Assembly (NCBI RefSeq): GCF_018802765.1
Contig: NZ_CP069163.1
Location: 2,676,311 to 2,740,310 of the forward strand
DNA from: Paludibacterium sp. B53371
Lineage (GTDB): Bacteria; Pseudomonadota; Gammaproteobacteria; Burkholderiales; Chromobacteriaceae
Direction of reading: 5' to 3'
Length of the DNA stretch: 64,000 bases
Part shown: positions 39,176-42,693 of the stretch, piece by piece
Position numbering within the stretch: the stretch's first letter is position 1
Layout of the letters: every line of letters begins with the position of its first letter
Made by a program: the position numbers and the translations under genes
The notes under the pieces: model-generated
The model's database searches: none
What the model was told of the DNA's origin: nothing
What the model saw: the letters and a program-made list of their open reading frames with translations, nothing else

Positions 39176-40311
39176 TGCTCGACTATGAAACCCTGCGCTT
39201 TATCTGGTGGCTGCTGGTCGGCGTGCTGCTGATCGGTTTTGCCGTGATGGATGGTCATGACCTGGGCGTCGGCACCCTGTTGCTGTGGGTGGCACGCGAC
39301 GACGACGAACGCCGGGTGCTGCTCAACACGGTCGGGCCGCACTGGGATGGCAATCAGGTGTGGTTCATCACCGGGGGCGGTGCCCTGTTTGCCGCCTGGC
39401 CGTTCATCTATGCCACGGCATTCTCCGGTTTTTACTGGGCCATGCTGGCCGTACTGTGGACCCTGTTCCTGCGTCCGGTCGGCTTCGACTATCGCAGCAA
39501 GCTGCCCCAGGCCAGCTGGCGTCGTTTCTGGGATGTGGCGCTGTTCATCAGCGGCGCCATCCCGCCGGTGATCTTCGGCGTAGCCTTCGGCAATCTGTTG
39601 CTGGGCGTGCCGTTCACCTTCGACGACACCCTGCGGGCCGACTATACCGGTTCGTTCTGGGCCCTGCTGACACCGTTCCCGCTGCTGTGCGGCCTGGTGT
39701 CCAGCGCCATGATCACCTTCCAGGGGGCGACCTTCCTGATGATCAAGACCGTCGGTGCCCCGCAGCTGCGCGCACGCCGCGCCGCGCATCTGGCCGGTCT
39801 GCTGTGTGCCCTGCTGTTCGTCGGGGCCGGGGTCTGGGTCAGCCAGTTGCCCGGCTACCAGATCATCGCCGGTGCCCTGCCCTCGGCCGAGTCGAATCCG
39901 CTGGCCAAGGTGGTGACGCTGCATGCCGGCGGCTGGCTGGCCAATTATCATCACTGGCCGCTGCTGTGGCTGGTACCGGCCGTGGGGGTGCTGTCGGCGC
40001 TGGTCGGTTCGGCACTGGCGCGCGCCGGGCGCGGCGGTCTGGCCTTCATCGCCTCCAGCCTGACCCAGGCCGGCGTGATCGGCACCGCCGGGGTGAGCAT
40101 GTTCCCGTTCCTGATGCCGTCCAGCCTGAACCCGAATGCCAGCCTGACCGCCTGGGATGCCACCTCCAGCCATCTGACGCTGTCGGTGATGTTTTGGGCC
40201 GCGCTGATCTTTACCCCGCTGATCGTGCTGTACACCAGCTGGTGCTATCGCGTGATGCGTGGCCCGGTAACGGTCGAGCAGGTCCGCAAGAACTCGAAAT
40301 CGGCTTACTGA
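39172..40311 (+). CDS. cydB: Cytochrome bd ubiquinol oxidase subunit II
   Basis: The 379-aa membrane protein is the structural partner of CydA. Typical sequence at the start (YETLRFIWWLLVGVLLIGFA, then DLGVGTLL) and GPHWDGNQVWFITGGGALFA. Nine helices are predicted. It overlaps cydA by four nt and is followed by cydX after 12 nt. Confidence 0.97.
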   Translation: MMLDYETLRFIWWLLVGVLLIGFAVMDGHDLGVGTLLLWVARDDDERRVLLNTVGPHWDGNQVWFITGGGALFAAWPFIYATAFSGFYWAMLAVLWTLFLRPVGFDYRSKLPQASWRRFWDVALFISGAIPPVIFGVAFGNLLLGVPFTFDDTLRADYTGSFWALLTPFPLLCGLVSSAMITFQGATFLMIKTVGAPQLRARRAAHLAGLLCALLFVGAGVWVSQLPGYQIIAGALPSAESNPLAKVVTLHAGGWLANYHHWPLLWLVPAVGVLSALVGSALARAGRGGLAFIASSLTQAGVIGTAGVSMFPFLMPSSLNPNASLTAWDATSSHLTLSVMFWAALIFTPLIVLYTSWCYRVMRGPVTVEQVRKNSKSAY

Positions 40312-40323
40312 AAGGAGACGCAC

Positions 40324-40437
40324 ATGTGGTATTTCGCCTGGATGCTGGGTCTGCCGCTGGCGATCTCGCTGGCGGTGATCAACGTCATCATCGAGGAAAA
40401 CCTGCACCATGATGATCTCGAGGACGAGACCAGGTGA
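40324..40437 (+). CDS. cydX: Cytochrome bd oxidase small subunit CydX
   Basis: A 37-aa protein, MWYFAWMLGLPLAISLAVIN followed by an acidic tail, with one membrane helix and the conserved WYFAW-LG-PLA pattern. CydX stabilises the haem site of the bd oxidase. AAAGGAG lies seven nt upstream. It is the last gene of the operon; a new promoter for cysS begins three nt after its stop. Confidence 0.93.
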   Translation: MWYFAWMLGLPLAISLAVINVIIEENLHHDDLEDETR

Positions 40438-40440
40438 CGG

Positions 40441-40469
40441 TTGACCGTCGCTGGCGACACCGATAGTAT
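40441..40469 (+). promoter_or_regulatory. Near-consensus sigma-70 promoter for the cysS leader
   Basis: TTGACC, a 17-nt spacer and TAGTAT. Seven nt after the -10 is the A of the leader ORF's ATG (40477), which would be the transcription start, so the leader transcript would begin with AUG. Confidence 0.7.
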
Positions 40470-40476
40470 CGAAATC

Positions 40477-40554
40477 ATGAAACTGAACCTGCTGAACCTG
40501 ACCCTGCGCCCGCAACCGTGTTGTCCGACACGGCCAGGGAGGTCGTGCGTCTAA
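40477..40554 (+). CDS. Cysteine-containing leader peptide upstream of cysS
   Basis: A 25-codon ORF, MKLNLLNLTLRPQPCC then PTRPGRSCV. Codons 15 and 16 are tandem TGT and codon 24 is TGC. No ribosome-binding site is present, consistent with leaderless translation from the promoter seven nt upstream. It is followed by competing hairpins and a terminator just before cysS. I interpret it as the sensor of charged Cys-tRNA in a transcription-attenuation circuit. Coding is predicted, not shown. Confidence 0.65.
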   Translation: MKLNLLNLTLRPQPCCPTRPGRSCV

Positions 40555-40577
40555 CGCATCCGTTCAGCACCCCCAGG
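40516..40577 (+). promoter_or_regulatory. Attenuator hairpin region upstream of cysS
   Basis: Hairpin 1 pairs CCGTGT (40516-40521) with ACACGG (40528-40533) and contains both tandem Cys codons. An alternative long pairing joins CGGCC-A-GGG (40531-40539) to CCC-AG-GGCCG (40572-40581), with GTGC (40545-40548) to GCAC (40567-40570) inside it. ACACGGC (40528-40534) can also pair with GCCGTGT (40581-40587). Both alternatives take up bases of the terminator's 5' arm, so they exclude it. Confidence 0.6.
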
Positions 40578-40613
40578 GCCGCCGTGTTATTGCAACCGGC
40601 GGCTTTTTCTTTT
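40578..40613 (+). terminator. Intrinsic terminator immediately before cysS
   Basis: GCCGCCG (40578-40584) pairs with CGGCGGC (40597-40603); GTT and AAC extend the stem inside a one-base bulge. The run TTTTTCTTTT follows at 40604-40613 and is joined directly to the GGAG ribosome-binding site of cysS. Confidence 0.85.
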
Positions 40614-40623
40614 GGAGAACCGC

Positions 40624-42003
40624 ATGCAGCTGCATTTGTACGATACCTGGCAACGCGCCCTGCGCCCCTTCGAACCCTTGCGTGCGGAGGGCGTCGGCCT
40701 GTACTGCTGTGGCCCGACGGTGTACGACTATGCCCATATCGGCAATCTGCGCACCTATCTGTTCGAGGACACGCTGCGCCGCGTGCTGCAGTTCAACGGG
40801 CATACCGTACGCCATGTGGTCAACATTACCGATGTCGGGCATCTGGTGTCGGATGCGGATGAGGGTGAGGACAAGATGGAAAAGGGTAGCCAGCGGGCCG
40901 GCGGCGAGTCGGCCTGGGCGCTGGCCGAGCGTTTTACCGAGGCCTTCCGGCAGGACATGCAGGCGCTGAACATGCTGCCCCCCACCCTGTGGTGCCGTGC
41001 CACCGAGCATATCCCGGAGCAGATCGACTTCATCCGCATCCTGGAAGACAAGGGCTATACCTACCGTACCGACGACGGCATTTACTTCGATACCGCACGC
41101 CAGGATGACTACGGCTATCTGGCCCGACTGAAACGCGAAGGGCTGCAGGCCGGTATCCGGGTCGAGCTGGGGCAGAAGCGTCAGCCGACCGATTTCGCTC
41201 TGTGGAAGTTCAGCCCGCGCGACAGCCAGCGCCAGATGGAGTGGGACAGCCCCTGGGGGCGCGGCTTTCCTGGCTGGCACATCGAGTGCTCAGCCATGTC
41301 GGCCAAGTACCTGTCGCCCTGGTTCGACATTCACTGTGGCGGCGAGGATCACGTGGCGGTGCATCACAGCAACGAGATCGCGCAGAGCCAGGCCTGCCAT
41401 GGCACCCGTGCCGCCAACTTCTGGCTGCATGGCGCTTTCCTGCAACTGGATGAGGCCAAGATGTCCAAGTCCAGCGGCGACTTCCTGCGTCTGCAGACCT
41501 TGCTGGATCGCGGCTACGACCCGCTGGCCTATCGCTATCTGAGCCTGACCGCCCATTACCGCAAGCAGCTCAATTTCAGCTGGGACTCGCTGGAGGGCGC
41601 ACAGCAGGCGCTGAACCGTCTGCGCAGTACGTATGCAGGTTGGCCTGAGGGCGGCAAGCTGCTGCCGGCGTTCGTCGAGGCCTTCACCGCCGAGATCAAT
41701 CAGGATCTGAATCTGCCGCGCGCGCTGGCCCTGGTATGGGGGCTGCTGAAGCAGTCCGACAGCGATGCGGACAAGAAAGCCACCTTGCGCCACTGTGATC
41801 AGGTGCTGGGTCTGGCGCTCGATCGGTGGCAACCGGTCGAGCAGGCGATCCCGGCAGAGATTCTGGCGCTGGCAGAGGCTCGCCAGGCGGCACGCCAGGC
41901 CAGGGACTGGACCCGGGCGGATGCGCTGCGTGACGAACTGGGTGCGCTCGGCTATGTGCTGGAGGATGGGGTGGACGGGGTGAGCGTGCGCCCGGCCCGC
42001 TGA
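40624..42003 (+). CDS. cysS: Cysteinyl-tRNA synthetase
   Basis: The 459-aa class I synthetase charges tRNA(Cys). The HIGH-type motif is YDYAHIGNLRTYL (near residue 38), the zinc ligand Cys is in LYCCGPTVYD and the KMSKS motif is AKMSKSSGDF (about 278). Length is normal. The ATG at 40624 has GGAG seven nt upstream. The preceding 180 nt form a promoter, Cys leader ORF and terminator, suggesting control by the level of charged tRNA(Cys). Confidence 0.98.
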   Translation: MQLHLYDTWQRALRPFEPLRAEGVGLYCCGPTVYDYAHIGNLRTYLFEDTLRRVLQFNGHTVRHVVNITDVGHLVSDADEGEDKMEKGSQRAGGESAWALAERFTEAFRQDMQALNMLPPTLWCRATEHIPEQIDFIRILEDKGYTYRTDDGIYFDTARQDDYGYLARLKREGLQAGIRVELGQKRQPTDFALWKFSPRDSQRQMEWDSPWGRGFPGWHIECSAMSAKYLSPWFDIHCGGEDHVAVHHSNEIAQSQACHGTRAANFWLHGAFLQLDEAKMSKSSGDFLRLQTLLDRGYDPLAYRYLSLTAHYRKQLNFSWDSLEGAQQALNRLRSTYAGWPEGGKLLPAFVEAFTAEINQDLNLPRALALVWGLLKQSDSDADKKATLRHCDQVLGLALDRWQPVEQAIPAEILALAEARQAARQARDWTRADALRDELGALGYVLEDGVDGVSVRPAR

Positions 42004-42051: not shown

Positions 42052-42693
42052 ATGCGCCGCAGCCGAAACATCCAGATCGTGCCCAACGACAGCAAACCCG
42101 ACGATGAGGATCTGGCGCCGGAGGTGCTGCCACTGTTCAAGCGCTATGAAAGCCAGGGCATTGCCCGCCAGATTTCGTTCTACCTGTCGGGCGAGATCGG
42201 TGATCCGATTCACTACACCGATCTGCTCTATACCCTGCGCAGTGCCAGCCAGACGGATCTGATCCTGCTGCATCTCAACAGCCCGGGCGGCAATTTCGAT
42301 ACCGGGCTGCAAATCATCAACAACATCGCCGCCAGTGACGCCCATGTCATGACGGTACTGGAAGCACGGGCCTATTCGATGGCCGCGCTGATTTTTCTCG
42401 CCGGCGACGAGCTGATCGTCCATGACACCTGCCAGCTGATGTTCCACAACTATTCGTCCGCCCTGATCGGCAAGGGCAATGAGCAACAGGCGCAGGTCGG
42501 CGCGGTCAGCAAATGGTTCGAGAAGGTCATGCGCCACGTCTGCCGCCCCTTCCTCGCGGATGAGGAAATTGGCCGCATTCTGCATGGCGAAGATATCTGG
42601 ATGGATACCGACGAAATTCGCCGCCGGCTGACCCATCTGCAGAAAGGCGAGCCGGCGGTGACGCCGAAAAAGCGTCAGGGCACAAAGGCCTGA
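42052..42693 (+). CDS. ClpP-like serine peptidase
   Basis: The 213-aa protein has the ClpP/crotonase fold. The nucleophile Ser lies in EARAYSMAALIFLAGDE and the His in QLMFHNYSSALIGKG, in the usual order, after LILLHLNSPGGNFDTG. It resembles the small family of ClpP-like proteins found away from clpX in proteobacteria rather than the main ClpP. GGAGG is eight nt upstream. It follows cysS and is convergent with rlmF. The ATPase partner, if any, is unknown. Confidence 0.8.
   Translation: MRRSRNIQIVPNDSKPDDEDLAPEVLPLFKRYESQGIARQISFYLSGEIGDPIHYTDLLYTLRSASQTDLILLHLNSPGGNFDTGLQIINNIAASDAHVMTVLEARAYSMAALIFLAGDELIVHDTCQLMFHNYSSALIGKGNEQQAQVGAVSKWFEKVMRHVCRPFLADEEIGRILHGEDIWMDTDEIRRRLTHLQKGEPAVTPKKRQGTKA

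Follow-up and report, generated by a model that had tools for sequence, protein, structure and literature searches.

The window analysed here, 64,000 nt of contig NZ_CP069163.1 of Paludibacterium sp. B53371, carries a cysteinyl-tRNA synthetase (CysRS) gene behind a short leader rich in cysteine codons. The locus raises the question of what the leader senses, and which synthetase it serves. An initial annotation of the sequence proposed attenuation of the trp/his type with Cys-tRNA as the signal. In the reading that we favour, with a probability of about 0.84, the leader is a ribosome-mediated transcription attenuator that responds to the level of charged tRNA-Cys and regulates an accessory CysRS.

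The window gene encodes a second CysRS

The gene at 40624..42003 (+ strand) encodes a CysRS. Its product scores 410 bits against TIGR00435 (cut-off 340), resembles solved CysRS chains by sequence and contains both CysRS signatures, HIGN and KMSKS. The protein also has all of the Cys/Cys/His/Glu motifs that we take to be the zinc sites, and a zinc-free spare enzyme was rejected because these presumed ligands are kept. CysS2 of Cupriavidus metallidurans is encoded in a zinc-starvation (Zur) operon and is, according to the same paper, probably zinc dependent (PMC10882993, as far as its available text goes).

Every one of the 61 genomes in the relatives set, to which the window's own belongs, had a CysRS match. 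CysRSs of the window type (at least 63% identity) occurred in 10 of the 61, and all ten of these genomes also had a copy at 38–41% identity. A wider draw returned the window type from 17 of 399 genomes of the order (E 1e-130 or better). Since the genome has another, housekeeping copy, the window gene is an accessory CysRS; judged by sequence, it is a second, sporadic enzyme and not the housekeeping cysS. The initial annotation was thus right about the enzyme family, but its cysS is a second copy, and the housekeeping copy lacks such a leader. We label the gene cysS2, a name coined here for CysRS genes of the window type. The cysS2 match of one relative, L002 (G003:C3:132904-134274), has one internal TAG and could be a pseudogene, a sequencing error or a match with a misplaced end. 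The ORF that follows cysS2 in the window (42052-42693) matches a ClpP-related head maturation protease at 67 bits, below the cut-off of 120.

Architecture of the leader and the proposed switch

Direct reading of the 186 nt at 40441-40626 gives a promoter, a short ORF, hairpin 1, an antiterminator and an intrinsic terminator, all on the + strand. The promoter is of the sigma-70 type (TTGACC-N17-TAGTAT, 40441..40469), with hexamers at 40441-40446 and 40464-40469 and a 17-nt spacer. It was the sole match in a scan of 40200-41000 (shuffle mean 0.2), and relatives have similar hexamers at an equal distance from the ATG. The ATG at 40477 lies 7 nt 3' of the −10 box and opens a predicted leaderless Cys leader-peptide ORF of 25 codons plus TAA (40477..40554; stop at 40552-40554), identified by sequence and by its recurrence in relatives and translated as MKLNLLNLTLRPQPCCPTRPGRSCV. 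Codons 15-16 are the tandem Cys codons TGT TGT (40519..40524), the predicted stall site according to sequence, recurrence and folding; a third Cys codon, TGC, is codon 24 (40546-40548).

The Cys codons are held in hairpin 1 (40516..40533), in which 40516-40522 pairs with 40527-40533 and which an inverted-repeat search found as CCGTGT/ACACGG. The same search returned a strand able to pair with the 5' arm of the terminator. This antiterminator (40532..40580) joins the region of 40532-40539 to that of 40572-40580 (GGCC..GGG with CCC..GGCC) and excludes the terminator; partner swaps and folding, given below, are its evidence. The intrinsic terminator (40575..40612) has the core stem GCCGCCG/CGGCGGC (40578-40584/40597-40603), a loop of 12 and a U-rich tail at 40604-40612. 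A scanning tool reported no terminator in 40200-41000, because its loop limit is 8. With loops of up to 17 allowed in a score of our own, 500 shuffles of the 69-nt region included 2 that did equally well. By eye, the ribosome-binding site of the synthetase gene is GGAG at 40614..40617.

The initial annotation had suggested folding the leader as a check, and this gave z −3.15, with none of 200 leader shuffles folding as well; the terminator piece gave z −3.02. The promoter, the ATG, the 25-codon ORF with its tandem Cys codons, hairpin 1, the competing pairing and the terminator with its U-run were all confirmed as annotated. Folding and the inverted-repeat search also revealed a long-range pairing (40490..40569), a perfect 8-bp match of TGCTGAAC (40490-40497) with GTTCAGCA (40562-40569) that rivals the antiterminator in nested folding. 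By eye, this pairing is partly present in the relative L003. An Rfam search of 39900-41000 returned nothing above the gathering score, for the T-box riboswitch or any other Rfam family.

Enterobacterial trp and his attenuators follow a logic of regions 1:2, 2:3 and 3:4 like that proposed for the window, and differ in having a Shine-Dalgarno (SD)-led leader, a biosynthetic operon and another amino acid. The window shares with them a short ORF with repeated codons for the amino acid that the next gene serves, and an intrinsic terminator in the gap that follows this ORF. From the parts, recurrence, pair fit and stall folding computed here, we infer the following start site, translation, stalling, kinetics and cysteine response. 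Transcription would start on the A of the ATG or on a neighbouring nucleotide, so that the leader would be translated without an SD site. With Cys-tRNA plentiful, the ribosome would clear the two Cys codons and get to the stop, hairpin 1 and the terminator would form, and transcription would end upstream of cysS2. With Cys-tRNA short, through low cysteine or a failing housekeeping CysRS, the ribosome would stall at codon 15 and cover the 5' arm of hairpin 1, leaving the strand from 40532 free. That strand could then pair with 40572-40580 before the 3' arm of the terminator exists, and cysS2 would be transcribed.

The leader recurs upstream of cysS2 genes

Upstream regions of cysS2 were collected from the relatives set, the order draw and a scan of public genomes (best 80 of at least 592), giving 80 unique regions with a protein identity of at least 57%. 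We dropped three duplicates as well as L100, whose match starts at residue 71; 20 more distant loci, two of them with an ATG Cys-Cys ORF, were kept out of the count. A strict scan defined a leader by a promoter with 8 or more of 12 matches, an ATG 5-8 nt beyond it and, from that ATG, an ORF of 10-45 codons with Cys-Cys. Such leaders were found in 33 of the 80 regions against 0.03 expected from 100 shuffles per region, and in none of 30 regions upstream of housekeeping cysS, ten of these from cysS2 carriers. When any ATG Cys-Cys ORF was accepted, the counts were 48/80 for cysS2 and 4/30 for housekeeping cysS. The tandem Cys codons, whose conservation in relatives the initial annotation had wished to see, therefore recur, and so does the promoter-ATG distance.

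The 33 leader loci include Chromobacterium, Paraburkholderia, Burkholderia, Trinickia, Achromobacter, Collimonas, Rugamonas and Amantichitinum. Named leader-bearing loci are Betaproteobacteria plus one Vibrio, and none of the 33 is labelled Chloroflexi or another non-Proteobacteria phylum. The strict leader is missing from 47 of the 80 loci, some of them betaproteobacterial, and other cysS2 loci have Cys-Cys ORFs with a different terminator, of the AAGGCTGC type. In 19 of the 33 loci the pair begins at codon 15. The relatives L002, L003 and L031 lack the Cys of codon 24, which several Burkholderiaceae leaders do have at that place.

Cys codons were also the rule when they were not asked for. 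Among 81 loci (the 80 plus L092), 34 combined a promoter of at least 9 matches with a leaderless-type ORF, and 32 of these ORFs contained Cys-Cys. The two without it are both from Janthinobacterium. In Janthinobacterium L071 and L080, a leaderless-type ORF and a terminator occur with no Cys-Cys in frame, and L071 has Cys-Cys in another frame. L092, from Vibrio sinus, lies at a gammaproteobacterial CysRS gene and has a TTGAAT-N17-TAGGAT-N7-ATG leader that contains four Cys codons. Its spacer and its terminator, which is GC-rich, were assigned by eye, and its ORF extends past the four Cys. A further set of loci (L032, L033, L036, L069 and L111-L113) has Cys runs at or near the stop with no clear terminator, possibly a second mechanism. 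These leaders resemble actinobacterial Cys leaders as described in the accessible part of PMC1262725.

Evidence for a leaderless start

Promoter spacing was left free (0-40 nt) across the 81 loci, and 32 of 48 Cys-Cys ORFs then had a promoter of at least 9 matches. The distance from promoter to ATG was exactly 7 nt in 24 of these 32 and 5-8 nt in 31. An SD-like core preceded 4 of 33 leaders, compared with 21 of 33 cysS2 genes. The spacing and the scarcity of SD-like cores are good evidence for a leaderless start, and the distance from the promoter predicts a 5' end at or near the leader ATG.

The leader might instead act as proposed from a transcript that begins upstream, with a weak ribosome site serving the ORF. 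We consider this unlikely. The promoter is a consensus match alone, and the loci with Cys runs near the stop (those named are Undibacterium and a Burkholderiales MAG) lack a good promoter at that distance, both of which would suit an upstream start. Against it stand the spacing, which settled on 7 nt when left free, and the few SD-like cores, the place of the SD being occupied by the −10 box.

Antiterminator pairing and folding under a simulated stall

The antiterminator could be anchored in 29 of the 33 loci (L007, L009, L057 and L059 were left out), and in these we compared each 5' strand with its own 3' strand and with swapped partners. Mean energies were −18.1 and −16.5 kcal/mol, respectively (p 5e-5). 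Partner swapping was used because the consensus fold of alignment A1 contained the terminator and missed the antiterminator. When 22 of the 33 leaders were aligned by column, 81.3% of antiterminator cells were paired, against 78.0% when shuffled (4 of 500 as high), and pairing fell to 33-63% when the partner was slid by one to three columns. Covariation by column was modest, its score being reached by 28 of 500 shuffles.

Hairpin 1 has modest comparative support in addition to folding and the inverted repeat. Its partner swaps gave p 0.05. In the alignment, 62.5-78.8% of its cells were paired with two compensatory pairs; this refers to the Burkholderiaceae register, from which the window pairs are shifted by one and so were mostly counted as unpaired. 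In the same register, hairpin 1 and the terminator pooled had 14 cells changed on both sides, against 4.2 in shuffles (0 of 500 as high), and 6 of the 14 sit in hairpin 1. Of the stems whose covariation the initial annotation had looked to, the antiterminator is supported by its partner fit and more modestly by column covariation, and hairpin 1 is a weaker point.

For the stall, nascent RNA with its 3' end before the 3' arm of the terminator was folded with the ribosome represented by a mask, either over all upstream RNA or over the 28-nt footprint alone. With all upstream RNA masked and the ribosome at codon 15, the antiterminator probability of the window was 1.00. The free RNA, or a ribosome at the stop, gave hairpin 1 or no antiterminator. 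Under this full mask the antiterminator exceeded 0.5 in 25 of 29 loci, all but L047, L075, L082 and L119; it did so in 5 of 29 as free RNA, in 2 of 29 with the ribosome at the stop and, by mean, in 0 of 29 with the spacer shuffled. A stall-favoured antiterminator that excludes the terminator, as in trp/his-type attenuators, is therefore seen with the full mask. Together with the recurrence, the cognate antiterminator pairing and the terminators described below, this supports the attenuation logic first proposed.

The footprint mask gave a graded profile. A stall at the first Cys codon yielded a mean of 0.49 (16 of 29 loci, the window not among them), and stalls at the five codons before it yielded 0.57-0.74. 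Past the first Cys, the mean was 0.13 at the next codon and 0.03 or less three to nine codons on, returning a little to 0.25 at +12 (7 loci). Stalls far before the Cys codons also gave the antiterminator in about half of the loci. The Cys codons thus mark roughly the 3' limit at which a ribosome can stall without blocking the antiterminator. In the window, the footprint mask gave 0.89-0.99 for stalls three to seven codons before the first Cys codon and 0.12-0.15 for stalls one and two codons before it, falling to 0.04 at that codon itself; this low value arises because 40490-40497 pairs with 40562-40569. The outcome for the window hinges on the choice of mask, so its switch would also rest on cover of the upstream RNA. 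At equilibrium, the finished window leader forms the terminator at 0.97 even with the stall, and the switch therefore needs co-transcriptional timing. Other attenuators likewise rest on such timing. For the window, the earlier claim that stalling favours the antiterminator accordingly holds with the full mask and not with the footprint mask or at equilibrium.

The nascent Cys-Cys peptide might itself sense a metal, persulfide or oxidant through ribosome arrest or release, in the manner of CruR of Bordetella, which senses copper by a nascent CXXC motif (PMC9426467, in its available text). A C-terminal GACV or GSCV that repeats among Burkholderiaceae leaders would fit such a role. The N-terminal halves of the leaders diverge widely with Cys-Cys kept, however, Cys runs are 2 to 4 long and CXXC is not constant. 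The simulated fold changes at the Cys codons, and such leaders precede CysRS genes and, in one case, cysE. Peptide sensing therefore appears rather improbable to us.

The terminator and the weaker alternatives

A terminator scoring at least 20 separates the ORF from the gene in 31 of 33 loci; the expected number is 1.9. Its fifth pair changes from G-C to A-U on both sides in 8 of 22 sequences, a compensatory pair that adds to the folding and shuffles. These data bear on Rho-dependent or translational control, in which Rho access or the ribosome site of the synthetase would be the target and the terminator hairpin would be secondary. Such control would be in keeping with the U-run, which adjoins the ribosome-binding site in the window, and with actinobacterial Cys leaders, which, according to the accessible text of PMC1262725, are without conserved terminators, unlike the window leader, and for which Rho was proposed. 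We judge it very unlikely, given a strong hairpin with a U-rich tail at nearly every locus; in the 31 loci the terminator ends 17-89 nt from the gene start and so is not tied to the ribosome site of the synthetase.

A chance likeness to an attenuator, for which one could cite that single parts are common and that the genome has 8 sites with the strict promoter-plus-ATG pattern against 4 for a reversed control, can be dismissed: the other 7 sites have no Cys-Cys in the first 60 residues of their frames, the shuffles and the controls (housekeeping cysS, cysE and other promoters) reject it, and in our view the comparative counts of leaders, with cognate antiterminator pairing, already refute it.

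Relation to known systems

As far as the available text of PMC8632094 goes, uORFC-8-2 is a predicted Cys attenuator at cysS of Rhodobacterales, with 145 examples and Cys usually at codons 14-15. By its description it shares with the window an ORF upstream of cysS, tandem Cys codons, a stem that holds them, a terminator with a U-run and an equal proposed logic; the window leader has each of these traits, its tandem Cys codons, 15-16, lying close to that place. uORFC-8-2 is reported exclusively from Rhodobacterales, within the Alphaproteobacteria, whereas the leaders described here are from Betaproteobacteria and one Vibrio. The main text of PMC8632094 does not use the word leaderless, and its available passages mention neither a second CysRS nor a covarying antiterminator. 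Because a cysS attenuator had already been predicted, our reading is less new than the initial annotation supposed. Among the titles, abstract openings and passages covered in the open-licence literature, none described a Cys attenuator for cysS from Beta- or Gammaproteobacteria.

Mycobacterial polycysteine short ORFs are, according to papers citing Canestrari et al. 2020, leaderless, with contiguous Cys codons and cysteine-responsive attenuation. They lie at cysteine biosynthetic genes and are described there as affecting translation, whereas the window has an intrinsic terminator and a synthetase. Closer in phylum is trpL of Sinorhizobium meliloti, whose RNA begins at the leader ATG and which sets terminator against antiterminator in a ribosome-mediated manner; it differs in its Trp codons and biosynthesis gene (PMC7298713, in its accessible part). 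The separate features of the window leader are thus already known; a leader of Beta- or Gammaproteobacteria that combines them ahead of a spare CysRS was not seen among the open-licence titles and abstract openings covered.

A cysE leader and further sites

A covariance model built from 22 leaders identified one upstream of a serine O-acetyltransferase gene, cysE (L144:664-1464), in one genome (87% completeness, 7% contamination). The gene product scores 230 bits against TIGR01172 (cut-off 211). In this leader a weak promoter lies 7 nt before the ATG of the ORF MNMPSRFFVPCCAQCCRPGPGELVA, and a terminator is present as well. The same leader at a cysteine-making gene fits cysteine sensing, in this one case. 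A scan of 30 other cysE upstream regions (best matches of 258 genomes) found no leaderless Cys-Cys ORF; the L144 leader itself falls below the promoter threshold of that scan.

Taken at its broadest, the evidence suggests, at somewhat better than even odds, a family of leaderless Cys attenuators that extends across Betaproteobacteria into Vibrio. The fixed geometry of promoter, start and stall site would let the first ribosome start right behind the polymerase, the spare CysRS would be a back-up made only when charging of Cys-tRNA fails, and the module would have been reused at cysE. If true, this would show how a bacterium chooses when to use a second synthetase, through a charging state that the first one cannot maintain. 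With 33 natural versions, all predicted to start leaderless, this attenuator would offer a good test bed for the coupling of leaderless initiation to transcription, and it would join two separate lines of work, one on the cysS motif of Rhodobacterales and the other on polycysteine leaders of mycobacteria.

The covariance model matched 12 of 31 other loci at E 1 or less, 9 of these at 0.02 or better. In the window's own genome it gave no second good site (77.1 bits, next 22.7). At order level, where strict filters recovered 3 of 17 known cysS2 genomes, 5 of 399 genomes matched: 3 at cysS2, 1 at cysE and 1 with probably a terminator alone. At class level, 5 of 369 matched, the window and four without a convincing Cys leader. 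A general Cys regulon was rejected on the lack of a second good site in the window genome and the few matches at order and class level.

One further leader, L149 (G364:C225:185-284), has the ORF MFSIRQSVLLLLANDPTGPALEHVC with four Leu codons, the arrangement TTGACA-N18-TAGTCT-N7-ATG and a terminator, and lies ahead of two ORFs, one acetyltransferase-like and the other LeuA-like by eye. Among 10 genomes of its family, the model matched G364 alone. Its sequence is possibly that of a leaderless Leu attenuator with the geometry of the Cys leaders.
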